Position numbers and translations under genes: made by a program
The notes under the pieces: model-generated
What the model was told of the DNA's origin: nothing
Database searches by the model: none
Seen by the model: only the letters and a program-made list of their open reading frames with translations
Assembly: GCA_946803715.1 (NCBI GenBank)
Contig: CAMPET010000004.1
Location: forward strand, 134,732-196,655
Direction: 5' to 3'
Origin: Beroe ovata
Taxonomy: Eukaryota > Ctenophora > Nuda > Beroida > Beroidae
Length of the DNA stretch: 61,924 nucleotides
Shown here: one piece after another, positions 13,429 to 24,351 of the stretch
Layout: the number at the start of each line of letters is the position of its first letter
Numbering within the stretch: the first letter of the stretch is position 1

Positions 13429-13689
13429 GGGAGGGATGGTTTATTAATCAGCCGCCAATTCTTTCTTGATTGTAACAGAAACAAATCGTGTTGGAATAAG
13501 CATTGCGAAAGAGAGATGCCAGATCTGTTGAAGAAAACGAGACTTTTATCTTTGGGTTGAAAGATGATAAATTGAATTTATTCTACTTTCTCGAGTTTTT
13601 TCTGTCCATCAAGTCAATAGTCTGTGGCTCTCAACTAAAATAGTCTTTGATTCACTCTTAACCCCTCCCCACACCCCCTGAACACCCTG

Positions 13690-13705
13690 TCCTCCTCATC
13701 TATAG
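13690..13705 (+). promoter_or_regulatory. 3' splice site just upstream of the HYPK ATG
   Basis: A pyrimidine-rich tract ending CATCTATAG at 13705 leaves only CC before the ATG at 13708. It is a candidate trans-splice acceptor. Confidence 0.55.
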
Positions 13706-13707
13706 CC

Positions 13708-14043
13708 ATGTCGGAGCAGCGCCCACGTGAGGATCACGTGAGTGACGAAGAGGACGACACATCCGTGAAGCAGGCAAAGCCGAAGCAGCACGACGCCGGT
13801 GCTTCTGACCTCGAGGGAATCCGGGATTTCCGGGACGAGGAAGTCGACGTGGGATCCATCGACACATCGGCCCTCATCACGAACAATGTCAAGAATGAGA
13901 CACAGGTTAAGATAAAGTTGAATAAGGAGGACATCGATCTGATATCCAGTGAGATGCTGGTTTCAGCTTCTGTCGCAGAACGGTGCCTTAGAGAGCATAA
14001 AGGAGATGTGAAGGCTGCACTCACTTACCTTGTCAATTGCTAG
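13708..14043 (+). CDS. HYPK: Huntingtin-interacting protein K homologue
   Basis: A 111-aa single-exon frame; human HYPK is 121-129 aa depending on the start. The acidic N terminus leads to the conserved KQHDAGASDLEGIRDF segment (human K-H-D-S-G-A-A-D-L-E), then a C-terminal UBA-like three-helix domain at about residues 70-111: KEDIDLISSEM, then AERCLREHKGDV and an ALTYL helix. HYPK binds and regulates the ribosome-associated NatA N-terminal acetyltransferase (NAA10/NAA15) and has chaperone activity; this is transferred by homology. The gene sits between GINS2 and PCLAF in the same orientation with about 280-290 bp on each side. Confidence 0.9.
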   Translation: MSEQRPREDHVSDEEDDTSVKQAKPKQHDAGASDLEGIRDFRDEEVDVGSIDTSALITNNVKNETQVKIKLNKEDIDLISSEMLVSASVAERCLREHKGDVKAALTYLVNC

Positions 14044-15679: not shown

Positions 15680-15810
15680 CGAACCTGTTACCGTATGTTA
15701 TAAAATCCTGTTTTTATTGATTGGCTACAGATAATTTGAAGGAAAATTAGGTTGCAAAGTTATTTTATCCTGTAATTTCCCACTAAGCTCTTAACTGAGT
15801 AACTGATTCA

Positions 15811-15825: not shown

Positions 15826-18800
15826 ATGGCTGAGAACTTAGCTGCTAACCTAGCAAAGGTGAATGTGAATGATGATAGAATTGTCTCCTTCGAGAACATG
15901 GGATTGAAGCTGGATGATGCTAAATCAGGTACCGCGAAATGCGAATTGTGTCATATGAAGAAACAAATTGTATGAGTTCTATCGATAATTCATACAATGA
16001 AGTTACCACCAGTGAAGTGTTAATAAGTTAAAACAGTTACCCAATATAGCTATATAACCCACTTTAGCCCAGAATCATAATTTCAGCGGAGGAAATTGTT
16101 CGCGCCATAGAAACATGCCCAAATATGGAGATACTCAACCTAGCTGGTAACACCCTGGGAGTTGATGCTGCGCAGGAGATAGCTAATGCGCTTCAGAGCC
16201 GACCCACACTCAAGGTAACAATGTGCCCGCTTCCTCAAATTTAGGAATTATTGAAAACGCAAAAGTTATTCGTCCTTGACGGTCTAAGTTATCGATTTCT
16301 CCTCACCACACACACTTCTTGTTCCAGTTTGCTTTATGGAAAGACATGTATACGGGTAGACTCCGATCTGAGATTCCACCCTCGCTTCGCGCTCTATCGA
16401 GCGCCATGATAACAGCACAGACACAGCTAGTGGAGCTAGACTTGTCTGACAACGCATTTGGTCCAGATGGTGCAGAGGCTATCAAGTCTCTTCTTACCAG
16501 CCCTGTAGCATACACCATACAGACACTCAAGTTTCAGAATAATGGACTAGGGGGTGGGGGAGTGGTGAGTGTTTTTCTGGCAATTGTTTACATCCCGAGG
16601 GGCGGATGGTGTTATTGAAACAGGTACACTTCGTGTTAACGCAAGGGCTAGGGGTTTGAAATGGACGAAATACATGTAGGGTGTATATATCTTACGATTG
16701 AACGTTTGTTTTCCAATAATCATCCCAAAAGCAAATAATTAGCAGCTAATCACACCTCAGATTATAGCAGATTGTTTGAAAAGTAACCACGAACGAGCTA
16801 AAAAGGCAGGAAAATCTCTAGATCTCAGAACATTCATAGCGGGCCGTAACAGATTGGAAAATCCTGGAGCCAAGGCATTGGGGGAAGCATTTTCTGTGAG
16901 TGAATTGTTTCAGTGGTACTATGGTAGTCATGTGCTTAGCTTGGGCTTTGGCGAGCACGGTTGGGATCCCTACTGTACGGCTTGTTAAACAAGGAATCGA
17001 AACCGTGGGATTCTGTGTTATGTGAGAAGTCGATTCTAAAACCCAGATTGTGACTTGCTAACTATTTTCAGTTACTGGGTACATTAGAGCAGATCGAGAT
17101 TATTCAGAACGGTATACAGTTTGAAGGTATCAAAGCGATTGCAGAATGTATTAAACACAGCCCCAATTTGAAGATACTCAATCTCAATGACAACATAATG
17201 ACACCAAGAGGAGCGATAGCTATAGCCGAGGTTTGTCGTGTTTGAGTTGAGTAAAGCTAGAACACTCCACAAGGCTTAAATATCAATCGCCAACACTCTC
17301 CAATTGACAACTGCGATTCATGTCGTTTATTTCAGGCATTACCATCTGCACAAAAATTAGAGATTCTTAATCTCGGAGATTGCTTGGTTAAGTCTGAAGG
17401 AGCACAAGCCTTGGCCAAGAGTTTGAAAAGTCTTACAAATTTGAAGGTTTGTGGCTTCTTGTGTCACATTTTGGCAAAATTCTCTTAATATTGATGGTTT
17501 GCGTAACGCGCGTAGATAATTTTTCGTCATAAGAGTGAATTTTCTTCGAATTTCGCGCTTCACGCGAGTTTTCTTTATCCATTATTTGGATTATTGTGGT
17601 ATTGAAGTTGTAGGTTGGAATCAGAGCTCAAATCTTCACCATTTTCAGGAGCTTATCTTAAGCTACAATGAAATACAGTCTGGTGGCGGAATAGCAATAG
17701 CAAGTACATGTTCCACACTGTCGTCACTCCAAAAACTAGATCTAGACGGGAACCACTTCGGCGAGGACGGAAAGGCCTCTGTTGGTTACGCGCTAGGAGC
17801 TAGTATCTCCGTACTTGATCCAGGTTTGATATGAATATTGCAAAACGCTTTTTGCCGCCCTACCATTTGTAGGGATGCTATTCACCGAATATCACAGGAT
17901 TGAACAACGATGAGGGCATTCCCTCTGATGATGAGGACGGAAATGAAGAAGAGGGTGACGGGGAGGAGGGCGGTAGGAAAGAGGAGGAAGAGAAGAAGGA
18001 TTCACCCGAGAAGTCGAAATCAGAGGCCCAACCTTTTGTTTTCGGCGGTGCTACATCGAGCCATACTCCGAGTTTCGGTGGCAACGGGGATTCGAACAAG
18101 GCGTTTGGATTCGGATCAACATCGACCGGCTTTTCATTCTCATCCATTTCTTCTGGAGAGAATATATTCGCTAAGAATACCGGTTAGTGTTTATTTTGAC
18201 AGTTCCCGACTCTATTTGTTGATTTTCTGACCCAATAACCTCTTAAATGCGTTCCGTATATTTATAGAAACATCTGAGTTCGCGTTCAAGGGTGCTGGTA
18301 CGACACTATTTGGATCATCTGATTCCAAAGCAACGGATGAGAATCCAGAAAAAGAGGCCGATGTTCATTTTGAGAGACTTGTTACACTGGAAAAAGTTAC
18401 TGTCGTTACTGGTGACGAAAATTCTGAAGAGTTGTACAAACACAGAGCCAAGCTGTTCAGGTTTCAATCTTCGGTACTTTCTACATTCCCGGGTAGTGAT
18501 AAAGTGACTTAGTTTTTATCCAATTACCCCCCCTCCCTTTTCATCAGGTTTGACAAAGAGGCTGGTGCTTGGAAGGAACGTGGGGTTGGTGATATTAGGA
18601 TCCTTCAAGACAAGAGGACGAAAATGTCCCGTCTGCTCATGAGAAGAGACATCATATTGAAGATTTGCTGCAATCATCACATCTCAAAACAAATGGAGAT
18701 GGAACCAAACGCTGGCAGTCTCAAATCGCTCGTTTGGTTTACGCCATCTGATTACTCTGACGGAGAACCAAAACCAGAAAATCTTGCTATACGGTTCAAA

Positions 18801-21128
18801 ACACCGGAAATCTGTGCCGAGTTTTTGGAAGCGTTTAAGAAAGCCAGGGCAGAACTCCCAGAGCCAGGGTCGATCCCACCAGCGGCGGAGGAGAATGTTG
18901 AGAAACCAGTGGACAACGCCTCGGAACCTCAGACTAACGCCAACGAACCGTTTTCATTTGCCTCACTCGCAGCTAATAGCAGCAGCAAAGCCCCCTTTGC
19001 TTCACAGACGTCTCCGGCAAAGGGGAGTCCGGTGAAAGATGGCAGTCTTTACCGAGAGGAAGAACCAGACATCCACTTTGAGAGACTGGTCAAGCTGGAG
19101 CAGGTTGAGACGGTATCGGGAACAGAGAATGAGGAAACGAAATATACTCACAGATGTAAACTCTATCGGTAAGCGCTAACATTCGTTCATTCCTTCTGAA
19201 AGTAATTTATGATTCGAGTGATTTCCCGGAACATAGAATTTCGGTCTTACCCACTTTACATCTTGCCTACTTATCGGGGTTATCGTTATTTGATGTAAGC
19301 CATGTGTTCTCTGCCAGGTTCGACAAGGAGGCAGCTCAATGGAAGGAGCGAGGTCTGGGTGACATATCAGTGCTATGGGACCGGAGTACTGGAAAAGGGC
19401 GGATCATCATGCGCCGTGAAACAATCCTCAAGTTGTGTTGTAACCACCTCATCACCAAAGAGATGGAGTTCTCCTTCCACCAGGGTGAGTTTACCGTGAG
19501 AAACTGCATTCACTCGACTATAGCAACAAATTATCTTGCCGTGGCCACAAGTGAAGTTACCATGTCAACAAGTGATGTCACCATAGCAAGAAATGGTGAT
19601 GCCATAAAAACAAGTCATGTTACCTTAGCAACAATTGATGTTACCATAGCAACATTGCAACAAATGATGTAGCCATAGCAACAGGTAATGTTATCATACC
19701 AACAAGTGATGTTACCATGGCAACTACTCAAGTGTTTCTCAGGTAACGACAAGTTCCTCACATGGCATACTTTCGCTGATATCTCGGACGATGAACCAGT
19801 GTTTCAACAGCTGGCAGCCCGATTCAAAACAGCTGAAGTTGCAGCAGAATTCAAGCAGGCGGTGATTGACTGTCAGGAAATGCTCGGACAGGTACTTCGA
19901 CGTTGCACATTTATTTCATCCCTAAAATATCACCAAATTGCACTCGTGTTGCCCTATCTCTCGCCACTTCTCATGCCCAATTCCCCAGGTGGACTCCTCT
20001 GTGGACCCAGCTGCAGCTACCGCCAGTGCTGCTATTGACAGTGTCAAGCTGTCAGAGACTCCTTCCTCTGCTGCTAGCAGTAGTGGTGGGGCTGGTGGAT
20101 TTGCAAACCTGATAGCACAGCAAAAGTCCATGTGGACATGTGACACGTGCGCACTGAGGAACAAACAGGAAGCCCCCAAGTGTATTGCTTGCGAAACGCC
20201 CAACCCTGCTGCCCCTCCTCCAGCCCCTGTCAATAAGACAGATGATAAGCCCAGTGCAGGCCCGACCTTCTCATTCGGTATGCCAAGTGCTGCTGCAGGT
20301 TCGGCCCCAACATTCGGCTCATCTGGAGGTTTCACATTCGGCAGCAAACCTCAGAGTCCCACTGCTTCATCCGCCGCTCCTACATTCTCATTTGGGGTTC
20401 CGGCTCCGGAAACCTCCCAGTTCTCATTTGGGACTCCCCAGCCCGCAGCCAGTGCCACTCCAGCATTCACATTTGGCCAGCCCGCAGCTCCTGCCCCCAC
20501 ATTCCAGTTTGGGGCGGGTAGAACACCCGCTGCCCCAGTCGACAAAACCCCTGAGAAGGAAGAACCCAAACCGTCACTCTTCGCGGGCTTTTCATTTGGA
20601 ACCATGCCAAAACAAGATACCGCTCTCATTACAGGTGTGCAGACGGTGGGCAGCCCAACACCCGCGCAAACATCTGTAGATTACAATAAATTCGTGTCTG
20701 AGCCGTCAGAGTCACTGCTTGAGAAGATAACGGCTCCTGATAGAGTGGCAGAAGCTATGGACTGTTCCAGTGCCACCTCTGTGGCAGCATTCCTGGCTAA
20801 ACTTTCCCAAGTGATGAGCAACAAGACGATCAACACGACTCAGATGATAGTGGATTCGGTCCTATCATCCTCCTTTGACCTGGAAAACCCAAGTGTTGTT
20901 ACCAACGAATTGCTAGTTTCTATGGGACTCATTAAGAGCGAGGATAAGAATTTCAAACCCAGTTCCGATGTGGAGAATATGCTGCGACTCATGGCTCACG
21001 CCATAGCACAACCTTACTTCCCTCCAGCCAGTGCTAAGATTGTGTCCGCTTTTGTTAAGAAGGATAAGGAGGTGCTGAGCAACAAAATAACTGATTGCAC
21101 TGAACTGTTTTCGTCTTTCCAAATCTAG
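15826..21128 (+). CDS. RanGAP1-RanBP2 (Nup358) fusion protein
   Basis: Thirteen exons keep one frame to 1200 aa: 15826-15928, 16087-16214, 16328-16564, 16761-16895, 17072-17230, 17336-17446, 17649-17823, 17898-18182, 18268-18460, 18548-19168, 19318-19484, 19743-19891, 19989-21128. Residues 1-350 are the RanGAP leucine-rich-repeat domain, with [13 protein letters not shown] (putative catalytic Arg88) and [19 protein letters not shown]. Then come an acidic stretch (~355-390) and FG-type repeats. Two RanBP2-type Ran-binding domains follow at ~475-605 and ~675-818, each with FDKEA-x-x-WKERG and LMRR or IMRR. A RanBP2-type zinc finger lies at ~868-895 (WTCDTC...NK...CIAC), FG repeats at ~915-1030, and the RanGAP1 C-terminal domain at ~1050-1200 with GLIKSEDK, matching the human SUMO acceptor motif at Lys524 (here Lys1137). 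Known roles: GTP hydrolysis on Ran, nuclear-pore docking and SUMO attachment. The fusion is read directly from the exons; no Nup358 IR repeat, TPR or cyclophilin domain is seen. Confidence 0.9.
16935..17025 (+). repeat. SINE-like dispersed repeat, copy 1 (in RanGAP intron 4)
   Basis: Shares the pattern TGGCGA-CACGG ... AAACAAGGAATCGAAACCGTGG with copies at 30819-30925 and, inverted, 38500-38605. The two blocks resemble the A and B boxes of a tRNA-derived pol III promoter. Confidence 0.55.
19520..19740 (+). repeat. Intronic minisatellite (~20-bp unit)
   Basis: Imperfect tandem copies of a unit like GTTACCATAGCAACAAGTGAT fill the intron between the two exons of the second Ran-binding domain. 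Confidence 0.75.
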
Positions 21129-22113
21129 TCTACCATTTAAGCAATGATGTTATTTTATTTTTCGCAGGAATTGCTTAACGATACCGAGTATGAATGCTTA
21201 CATTTTTCCCATTTATAAGAACTGGACAACAACTGTGCTGATTAATAAAGTTATTCTGATCACGATGATTGATTCATCCTTATGAAGAAGACTTCATTCT
21301 CGATAACAGCTGTTTTATGTCTCCCAACGATGGAACTTCAACTTGAGATGTAGATTCCAAAGACATTTTCCCGCCAAAATTGCACGCGTCATGAAGCGCG
21401 CAGCGCACTTATAATTGAACACGACGCGCGCTAAGCCAATTTTAAAATACTCCGGAGATCGCGCGCAAGGTGAATTATGCGCGCATCTACGCGTCCCAAA
21501 TTTTGCCCCACAGAATTACCCTACAGTATTACGAACCCGAAACCGATGGTCAGCGTTTTCAGGGTCAATCTCAGGGTATGAACTGCTGTGTGGGACAGAC
21601 AAAGTTCAGGATGCATAGACAGCAGCAGGACGCTAAAATCTAGTTGAGGTCAGAAAAAGTGTCCCGTTTTAACCGAATAATGACGGATATCCCCACATTT
21701 GTCGTTATAACGATAAATCAGAACCTGTATTACACTTCTTCTCAGTTTACTACTATTATATGATGAAGATATTGAAAACTATCAAATACTGTAACACCAC
21801 AAAGATAAATCGGAATTTGAGACACTGGGCACGATTGTTTTGTCGTCATACTAAGGCAAAAGGCAAAAGTCCCATTTTCGTGATACTTTTTCATGAATAT
21901 TGGACGTGTTAAACCAGACACAAGACCGAATAATCAGTGTCTTATCAATCAAAATGTGGACTGAACAATGATAACAAATTCCCGACTCATTGATAACATA
22001 CTTCTCTCATTACATGAAATTAAACACCCCAAACTTTAGCATCTTGTGACACTTAGGAATCAGAACAAGTATTCGTTTCGCTTACTCCCCAATTCCGTTT
22101 ATAATTGCACGAA
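21129..22113. other. Intergenic: RanGAP 3' end and cathepsin B 5' flank
   Basis: AATAAA at 21244-21249 is the likely polyadenylation signal of the fusion gene. A GCGC-rich patch lies at 21385-21500. No other feature is seen up to the cathepsin B start. Confidence 0.6.
21244..21249 (+). terminator. Polyadenylation signal of the RanGAP fusion gene
   Basis: AATAAA 115 bp after the stop codon. Confidence 0.6.
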
Positions 22114-24351
22114 ATGTTCGGTTTGATACTAGCGGTATGTGCGCTGGTAAGTCCAGCTTCTACAATGGACTTGCTAGGCGACGGGATGATTCAGCATCTC
22201 AACAGAAGACCTAACATGACATGGGTTGCGGGAAGAAACTTCGCTGTAAGTTCATTTCCGTTTTACTTGAATCATCTCAGCCGCAGTTATTATCAACATT
22301 CGATTCCCACGAACACAAACTGATAATACCTACTTTCAAATGCAGGGTCAGTCGATGAGTGATGTGGTGAAGCTACTAGGCGCTAAGAAGAGTGAGTTCT
22401 GGAAAGGCAAACTCCCTACTATGAAACACAGCATTGATCTGGACGCCATCCCTGATAGCTTCGACTCCCGAACAGCATGGCCCGACTGCCCCTCCATTGG
22501 TACCATTAGGGACCAAGGGGAATGTGGGAGCTGCTGGGCATTTGGCGCAGCTGAGGCAATGAGCGATAGAACTTGTATTCATAGCCAGGGAAATATTCAG
22601 GTGCGTGTGCGTATAAAACTATAAAAGGTGTTAAACAGTCTTGTTCCATCTTTTAATGGCTTCACGAGTTAAGCAATCAATACTAGTGCCAAAATATGGT
22701 TCATGAGACCCGCCGACTCAACATAAGAACGATTTGTCTCGAATATGTAAATCATATAGTGGGAGTGTGTTTCAGAAATGTTATAAAATGTCGGGCCACA
22801 CTCATTAAAACTTGTCGTCATTGTTTTCATACAGCTCCTTCTTGTTCTAAGAAGTTGAGCACTGTTTTGGCGAGATTTTTCTACTAATCCAGTCAAGAAT
22901 GTTATAAAACTGAAGGTTGATACCGGACTGGTATTTTGAAAAGTTGGCAATGGGACAGACAGTAGGTAAATTCTTTACTCAGGTCAACATATCAGCGGAA
23001 AATCTGCTATCCTGTTGCTATAGCTGTGGATTTGGATGTAATGGTGGTTTTCCTCCTGCAGCTTGGTACTACTGGACAGGTGAAATTCACTCACTCACTC
23101 ATCCAGTCACTCACATTCTTACCTCACACACACTGCACACATTCTCACCTCACNGTATTTTGAAAAGTTGGCAATGGGACAGACAGTAAATTCTTTACTC
23201 AGGTCAACATATCAGCGGAAAATCTGCTGTCCTGTTGTTATAGCTGTGGATTTGGATGTAATGGTGGTTTTCCTCCTGCGGCTTGGTACTACTGGACAGG
23301 TGAAATTCACTCACTCACTCACTCACGCACTCACCTACTCTTTTACTCTCTCGATCACTCATCCAGTCACTCACGCGCTCGCTCGCTCAGACACACACAC
23401 ACACACTCACACACACACACACACACACAGACACACAAACATACACACACACACACACTCACTTATTCCCCAGAGAATGGCTTGGTAACCGGAGGGCAGT
23501 ACGAATCGGAATCAGGATGTCAGCCGTACTCCTTCAGAAAGTGCGAACACCACACAACGGGACCGTATGCTCCTTGCACAGGCGATAATCCTACACCCAA
23601 GTGTTCACACAAGTGTAGGGAGGGTGAGTTTTGGCAAATTTCCAGCACATTCGGCATCATTGATCTTGACTCTTGAGAAACAACAGCAGCTGCGTATCTA
23701 TCTCATGCCACAATCCTGTGGCTGAGTGAAGCCACCAAACTATCAGCCTTAGTCAGTCCATGCCACATTCCCTGAATCCCACCCTCTCTCTGTGCCCCAG
23801 GTTACAGTGTGAAGTACAGACATGATCTCCATTTTGGCAAGACGGCGTATAACGTGGACTCGGACATTGCCACTATTCAGACAGAGATCATGAAGAACGG
23901 GCCAGTGGAGGGGGCGTTCAGTGTGTACTCTGATTTCCCGCTCTATAAGAGTGGTGTATATCAGCATGTTTCGGGTAGGGAAACTGTAATCTGGATGTAA
24001 TAACAACGAAAAAATCATGGAATTTTGATATGAAATTGTTCAGATATGGCATATTTCAGTGACACGTGTTTAGTTTTTCCAATAAGGACACGCACTAGAA
24101 TAATAACTGAAACTTCTCTCACACTCCAACGTCTCCCTCCAGGTTCGGAGTTGGGTGGGCACGCAATCCGTATTCTCGGGTGGGGAGTGGAGGACTCTGT
24201 ACCGTACTGGCTCGTTGCCAACTCTTGGAACCCCACCTGGGGAGACGAGGGGTATTTCAAGATACTCCGGGGCTCGAACGAGTGTGGGATTGAGGAGGAG
24301 ATTGTAGCTGGAATACCTCGTGAGAATAACGCAGTCGAGATGGAGATATGA
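22114..24351 (+). CDS. CTSB: Cathepsin B (papain-family cysteine protease)
   Basis: Exons 22114-22245, 22346-22600, 22983-23079 (or its twin 23203-23299), 23474-23623, 23801-23974 and 24143-24351 give 338 aa; human CTSB is 339. A hydrophobic signal peptide ([16 protein letters not shown]) is followed by a short propeptide with the N-x-T-W-x-A-G-x-N-F motif. The mature enzyme starts near [14 protein letters not shown]. The catalytic Cys is in [12 protein letters not shown], the His in [12 protein letters not shown] and the Asn in [10 protein letters not shown]. The occluding loop specific to cathepsin B, which gives dipeptidyl-carboxypeptidase activity, is present as C-E-H-H-T-T-G...[10 protein letters not shown] with both loop histidines. 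It is a lysosomal protease by homology. Exon 3 occurs twice around an N (23154); only one copy fits a functional protein, so the second is most likely an assembly duplication. Confidence 0.93.
22917..23300. repeat. Cathepsin B exon 3 duplicated around an assembly N (23154)
   Basis: The segment from TTTTGAAAAGTTGGCAATGG through exon 3 and its GT donor occurs at about 22934-23090 and again at 23158-23310, with a few synonymous differences and a small indel. The junction carries a single N. Confidence 0.8.
23385..23460 (+). repeat. (CA)n / CACT microsatellite
   Basis: CA-rich simple repeat filling the end of the cathepsin B intron before the exon at 23474. Confidence 0.85.

Follow-up and report, generated by a model that had tools for sequence, protein, structure and literature searches.

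A ctenophore gene joins RanGAP1 and Nup358-like modules in a single reading frame

Results

A RanGAP1 gene with an internal Nup358-like segment

We analyzed a stretch of 61,924 nucleotides of the Beroe ovata genome (the window; contig CAMPET010000004.1, hereafter C4, positions 134732-196655; the assembly has 534 contigs and a total of 77.8 Mb). Its forward strand carries, at 15826-21128, a gene in which RanGAP1 and modules like those of Nup358 (RanBP2) are fused, and at the DNA level this fusion is real and unusual. Thirteen exons were rebuilt from the sequence; they join into a coding sequence of 3603 nucleotides, including the stop codon, that encodes 1200 residues in a single frame. Judged from its sequence, the product would be one bifunctional chain, namely a RanGAP1 that also contains the part of Nup358 that handles Ran on the cytoplasmic side, made of phenylalanine-glycine (FG) repeats, two Ran-binding domains (RBDs) and one zinc finger. 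We give this reading a probability of roughly 0.7. The parts of the gene are as follows (window positions; LRR, leucine-rich repeat; GAP, GTPase-activating protein).

15826..17823, + strand: exons 1 to 7, RanGAP N-terminal region and LRR GAP domain, residues 1-349 (48.5% identity to human RanGAP1, PDB chain 9b62_G; 151.7 bits with S. pombe rna1p, 1yrg)
15826-15928, 16087-16214, 16328-16564, 16761-16895, 17072-17230, 17336-17446, 17649-17823, + strand: borders of exons 1 to 7
16358..16360, + strand: codon of R88, aligned with rna1p R74
17898..18182, + strand: exon 8 (95 codons), acidic RanGAP tail passing into FG sequence, first seam
18268..18863, + strand: exon 9 and the 5' portion of exon 10, FG sequence and RBD1 (residues about 478-614, from about 18366)
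18461..19317, + strand: intron 9 (18461-18547), exon 10 and intron 10 (19169-19317)
19077..19891, + strand: end of exon 10 with exons 11 (19318-19484) and 12 (19743-19891), RBD2 (residues about 686-821)
19989..21128, + strand: exon 13 (380 codons with the stop, TAG), zinc finger, FxFG repeats and RanGAP1 C-terminal domain, second seam
20130..20207, + strand: RanBP-type zinc finger, residues 869-894 (Pfam Zn_ribbon_RanBP)
20274..20600, + strand: FG repeats, 8 FG including 7 FxFG, residues 917-1025
20640..21086, + strand: RanGAP1 C-terminal domain, residues 1039-1187 (Pfam RanGAP1_C)
20934..20936, + strand: codon of K1137 in the motif IKSE, aligned with human RanGAP1 K524
21051..21062, + strand: codons 1176 to 1179; F1176 aligns with human F562 and K1179 with K565
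21244..21249, + strand: AATAAA, probable polyadenylation signal, 116 nucleotides past the stop

The rebuilt gene agrees with the initial annotation, which had described thirteen exons with canonical borders and one open frame of this length. All introns (12/12) are GT-AG, with lengths of 74 to 258 nucleotides, and a TGA stands in frame at 15796, 30 nucleotides upstream of the ATG. A minisatellite with a period of about 21 lies at 19520-19724, within intron 11.

The two places at which RanGAP1 and Nup358-like sequence meet were then located relative to the exons. The first seam lies within exon 8 alone, where the acidic RanGAP tail passes into FG sequence with no intron. The second seam lies within exon 13 alone, in which the zinc finger, the FG repeats and the RanGAP1 C-terminal domain follow one another in one uninterrupted frame. 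Since both seams lie in single exons, an error of splicing or assembly is an unlikely cause of the fusion. An artefact uniting two loci, in the assembly or in the gene model, was thus rejected as hardly credible: the seam exons are open throughout, the contig is 897 kb long, the gene contains no N, and searches of the assembly gave no further close copies of the modules. Here and below, genome searches were run exon by exon in this one assembly, and only the best candidates were scored.

Conservation of the RanGAP1 parts

A Pfam search of the 1200-residue translation reported, in order, LRR families, two Ran_BP1 stretches, Zn_ribbon_RanBP and RanGAP1_C. These domains scored above the Pfam cut-offs in one frame, and the encoded covalent joining of the GAP with the Nup358-like domains, as first described, stands. 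The proposed order was borne out as well, with the Nup358-like part placed after the acidic region and before the C-terminal domain: in a PDB search, human RanGAP1 (9b62_G) covered both ends of the protein (residues 4-408, 333.8 bits; residues 1041-1184, 36.3 bits), and the middle was matched by RanBP2/Nup358.

The LRR domain had been called intact, and it is. In addition to the LRR families reported by Pfam, 160 of 330 aligned residues in this region (48.5%) are identical to human RanGAP1, which was also the top match when exon 3 alone served as the PDB query. Moreover, R88, N148 and R187 align with R74, N131 and R170 of rna1p, so that Arg, Asn and Arg are all kept; we take these rna1p residues to be important for GAP function, and R74 to be essential. 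The LRRs are followed by an acidic stretch that aligns with the acidic tail of human RanGAP1 (PDB search; exon 8).

At the other end of the protein, RanGAP1_C (PF07834) was matched with an E value of 6.7e-16 at residues 1039-1186. The SUMO-acceptor context is kept as had been noted: K1137 in IKSE aligns with human K524, the SUMO acceptor of human RanGAP1, and the acid two residues further on is also kept relative to the human protein. F1176 and K1179 align with human F562 and K565, which we take to be Ubc9 contacts. A single-sequence AlphaFold2 model of the C-terminal domain (166 residues) had a mean predicted local distance difference test score of 40.7 and was not used.

Ran-binding domains, zinc finger and FG repeats

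The two Ran_BP1 stretches together reached an E value of 7.6e-82 in the Pfam search, and the zinc finger at residues 869-894 one of 4.9e-8. The FG repeats that follow the zinc finger stand out from composition: residues 897-1038 hold 8 FG, 7 of them FxFG, while 10,000 shuffles of that stretch gave at most 7 FG and at most 3 FxFG. The first linker (residues 386-476), with 5 FG (2 FxFG) against a shuffle maximum of 6 FG, is less striking. The parts of Nup358 that were not seen in the fused protein by Pfam are the N-terminal helical (TPR) domain, for which no match was reported, the cyclophilin domain (no Pro_isomerase match) and IR1-M. The last of these is the SUMO/Ubc9-binding part of RanBP2. 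Thus, the statement in the initial annotation that the tethering partner modules are present in cis holds for the RBDs, the zinc finger and the FG repeats, but fails for IR1-M.

The two RBDs are 54.0% identical to each other. To place them, trees were built from 12 sequences, a thin sampling that comprised the fused pair, eight human and Xenopus Nup358 RBDs, human RanBP1 and yeast Yrb1. RBD1 and RBD2 were each other's closest relatives in both trees (ultrafast bootstrap 95; FastTree support 0.97). Furthermore, introns 9 and 10 cut the two domains at the equal position, after KLF in one and KLY in the other, each followed by R, and both in phase 2. Because of this sister grouping and of the shared place and phase of the introns, one RBD is probably a duplicate of the other. 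Exon 10, a symmetric 2-2 unit of 621 nucleotides, shows the pattern that a tandem RBD duplication within the gene would leave.

The block as a whole had been proposed to have entered an ancestral RanGAP gene by exon shuffling. We did not find support for this, since both seams are intra-exonic (exons 8 and 13) and the block of exons 9 to 12 is flanked by introns of unlike phases, 1 and 0.

We then considered whether the RBDs derive from Nup358 or from RanBP1. RanBP1, a small protein of its own, has a single RBD and acts as a helper of RanGAP. On the latter view, RanGAP would have taken up an ancestral RanBP1, and a Nup153-like gene would have supplied the zinc finger and FG repeats. In agreement with such an origin, a separate RanBP1 was not found in the genome by the RBD-family and fused-protein searches, and FastTree placed the fused pair with Yrb1, RanBP1 and vertebrate RBD1, away from RBD2-4 (support 0.83); IQ-TREE left the position of the pair unsettled with these 12 sequences. 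RBD1 itself scored 132.2 bits at most against Yrb1 and 126.1 against RanBP1 (1k5d_B), values that fall within the range seen with isolated RanBP2 RBD chains, 114.0 (1xke) to 143.8 (7mnw). Finally, a Nup153-like gene on another contig (see below) has zinc finger and FG repeat types like those of the fused protein. RBD2, in contrast, scored higher against isolated RanBP2 RBD chains, from 113.8 (7mny) to 130.6 bits (4l6e), than against Yrb1 (107.5 at most) or 1k5d_B (97.1). In addition, the 75 residues that precede RBD1 show a weak in-register alignment to the sequence upstream of RBD2 and of RBD4 in Xenopus Nup358 (14.0 and 15.5 bits; E of 0.23-0.25 for the whole sequence). The corresponding Xenopus stretches ahead of RBD1 and RBD3 scored 3.7 and -0.6, human RanBP2 was not listed at E values up to 1, and a Yrb1 chain was listed at E 0.29, aligned only over the beginning of the RBD. 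Taken together, we lean towards a Nup358 rather than a RanBP1 ancestry of the fused RBDs, and regard the RanBP1 origin as somewhat unlikely. Of the "two RanBP2-type Ran-binding domains" described at first, the two domains were found, while the RanBP2 type is left unsettled by the 12-sequence tree, even if the RBD2 scores lean to Nup358.

Copies and partners elsewhere in the genome

The initial annotation had called for a genome search for a separate Nup358 or RanGAP1 gene. Neither was detected, and a single RanGAP1_C-like domain turned up on contig C151. The whole fused protein matched 20 places: its own 13 exons, four other LRR sequences, two zinc fingers on C262 and the domain on C151. The search recovered all LRR exons of the fused gene (7/7), with 86-97% identity over matched stretches that extend into introns. 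The four other LRR matches were only 29-34% identical, and no other close RanGAP LRR was detected in the genome with this query. Searching with the RBD family gave four places, three in the fused gene and one on C6. The latter, the only other RBD match found, belongs to a gene at C6:233648-236010 that looks RanBP3-like by eye and has a diverged RBD (Pfam Ran_BP1, 3.2e-13).

Since these searches gave no other close RanGAP and no other RBD of the RanBP1/Nup358 type, the fused gene is likely the only copy and not an extra chimera. It is probably the main RanGAP of the animal, and probably the sole one. It would be an extra chimera if conventional RanGAP1 and Nup358 genes existed and had been missed or not assembled. 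The domain on C151 does show that at least one related gene exists; yet the same search that recovered every LRR exon of the fused gene gave no other RanGAP-like LRR, and no LRR match was obtained by tblastn, at E values up to 1, in the 40 kb around the C151 domain (60001-100000). We consider an extra chimera very unlikely.

With regard to Nup358, the N-terminus of human RanBP2 (residues 1-866) gave zero matches in the genome. As a control, human Nup93, another helical nucleoporin, gave one match (37% identical, E 7.5e-156). Nup93 makes a lenient control: it is the better conserved protein, and its match is not broken up by introns but forms a single open frame. Pro_isomerase matches were listed at 35 places in the genome, all on contigs other than C4.

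Several points weigh against a single chain that does the work of both proteins. The absence of Nup358 comes from single-sequence, exon-by-exon searches of one assembly with the lenient Nup93 control, and the genome search for IR1-M, which found none, had no positive control. The second RanGAP1_C-like domain, at C151:88636-89190, carries MKCE in place of the SUMO motif, as well as an insert rich in cysteines; it aligned over 112 columns with 35.7% identity (E 1e-12, tblastn of a few fetched stretches), with E values of 2.5e-7 in the genome search and 2.6e-6 in Pfam. Moreover, internal promoters or alternative ends could yield separate products from the fused locus. Alternative starts, ends and splicing might thereby give two proteins, an ordinary RanGAP and a short one resembling Nup358, with the full-length chain as a minor product. 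Exons 8 (1-1) and 10 (2-2) are both symmetric, and skipping either would preserve the frame. However, AATAAA and ATTAAA are absent from 17150-20685, so that an early-ending RanGAP transcript would have no standard signal near exons 7 to 9. Likewise, the zinc finger, FG repeats and C-terminal domain share exon 13, and skipping of whole exons cannot remove the zinc finger and FG repeats from a RanGAP1 that retains its C-terminal domain; such a form would need an extra acceptor within exon 13, where acceptors were not searched for. We judge this mixture of products to be unlikely.

Two Ubc9-like genes were observed. The one on C20 has four exon matches with 83, 77, 59 and 60% identity, and the second, at C25:238062-238520, is a single frame 51% identical to human Ubc9. 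RanBP-type zinc fingers were also found elsewhere. The Nup153-like gene at C262:85430-91941, identified by eye, has several of them and many FG repeats. Clusters of frames rich in such fingers, some near-identical, lie at C89:162311-174952, C317:57164-74709 and C324:5173-8389; they represent a local expansion or are partly assembly duplicates. These clusters were considered as a hidden Nup358 and discarded: in the stretches read by eye they look like proteins that are rich in glycine and arginine or have many zinc fingers, and none of the RBD matches lies on those contigs.

Discussion

A proposed single-chain route for Ran-GTP hydrolysis

RanGAP is the enzyme that inactivates Ran outside the nucleus. 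By itself it cannot act on Ran-GTP that is bound to import or export receptors, and the RBD of RanBP1 or Nup358 loosens the receptor-held Ran-GTP. In vertebrates, RanGAP1 and Nup358 form a stable SUMO-dependent complex, in which Ubc9 and the IR region anchor SUMO-RanGAP1 to Nup358. From the modules present we read the fused protein as a single-chain machine for Ran-GTP disassembly, in which the GAP and the Ran-presenting domains are joined by a peptide bond. The FG repeats would bring in importin- or exportin-Ran-GTP complexes that reach the cytoplasmic side of the pore. An RBD would grip Ran-GTP and loosen it from its receptor, and the LRR domain, on the same chain via a linker of about 130 residues and with its GAP residues kept, would then stimulate GTP hydrolysis. 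The zinc finger may hold the Ran-GDP product. As a rough estimate, the approximately 130 residues between the LRRs and RBD1 would span several nanometres as a random coil; therefore, one chain should be able to hold one Ran from two sides. The fused protein would thus do a job that is shared elsewhere by RanGAP1 and Nup358/RanBP1.

In such a chain the GAP would stay attached to the RBDs without the help of SUMO. Since the SUMO lysine and the Ubc9-contact positions are kept, modification probably still occurs, and K1137 can probably still accept SUMO, which might serve in positioning or have another use.

Comparison with known systems

As in vertebrate RanGAP1, the N- and C-terminal domains come in like order and the SUMO lysine and Ubc9-contact positions are present, but the fused protein adds about 650 residues (FG sequence, two RBDs and the zinc finger) between the acidic tail and the C-terminal domain. 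With Nup358/RanBP2 it shares RBDs with a weakly similar preceding stretch, the RanBP zinc finger and the FG repeats. It differs in the number of RBDs (two, compared to four in the human and Xenopus proteins), in that of zinc fingers (one, where Nup358 has many) and in domain order. The helical N-terminal domain, IR1-M and the cyclophilin domain were not found in it; a C-terminal cyclophilin domain is a feature of vertebrate Nup358. The RBD fold is common to RanBP1/Yrb1, in contrast to the length of 1200 residues and the second RBD. Similarly to the SUMO1-RanGAP1/Ubc9/RanBP2 complex, GAP, RBD and FG activities are brought together, with a peptide bond used in place of SUMO and Ubc9. RanGAP1 and RanBP2 chains are both contained in PDB entry 9b62.

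Evolution of the fused gene

Ctenophores are a very early animal branch. They may lack a separate Nup358 and a SUMO-dependent RanGAP tether altogether, with one fused RanGAP-Nup358 protein doing both jobs, and in its boldest form this idea would make the fused gene the old animal state; we regard it as quite doubtful. If that form were true, other animals would later have split the fused gene into RanGAP1 and Nup358, and SUMO with Ubc9 would have replaced the lost peptide bond. We consider a late fusion far more likely than an old state that was later split.

As a natural "Rosetta stone" fusion, the gene suggests that selection keeps the GAP and the RBDs close, be it by SUMO or by a peptide bond. 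A single-chain protein would allow the role of this closeness in the disassembly of export complexes to be tested. It also raises the question of what purpose the SUMO site of RanGAP1 has where a tether is not needed, and that of whether Nup358 is as general among animals as has been assumed.

Neighboring genes and other loci

Both neighbors of the fused gene are separate genes. Upstream lies a HYPK-like UBA gene (13651-14043), and downstream a papain-family protease that starts at 22271 or slightly earlier; a propeptide match of the latter at 22105-22320 was under the Pfam cut-off. An NCBIfam scan of three neighboring frames gave one weak match, below cut-off.

Some further gene families were searched for in the genome. 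Innexins gave 14 matches. An Antp query gave 20 homeodomain matches, of which the best-scoring was 46% identical and the highest identity was 56% over 34 residues, and no clear match to a Hox-like homeodomain was found with it. Berovin, a ctenophore photoprotein, gave 22 genomic matches (query of 208 residues, as in 4mn0). Seven of these cover at least 205 residues with 89-95% identity, one of the seven with a stop. This gene content fits a ctenophore. A sponge or placozoan source was rejected because of the innexin matches, as these groups are not known to have innexins; a bilaterian or cnidarian source is made unlikely by the homeodomain result and, more strongly, by the photoprotein genes. 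Contamination is a remote explanation for the fused gene; the photoprotein genes sit on contigs other than the window's C4 (897 kb). The genes 89-95% identical to berovin were observed in neighboring copies on C432, C484 and C192, and a separate array at C138:130836-139191 holds 12 diverged photoprotein-like matches (31-39%).

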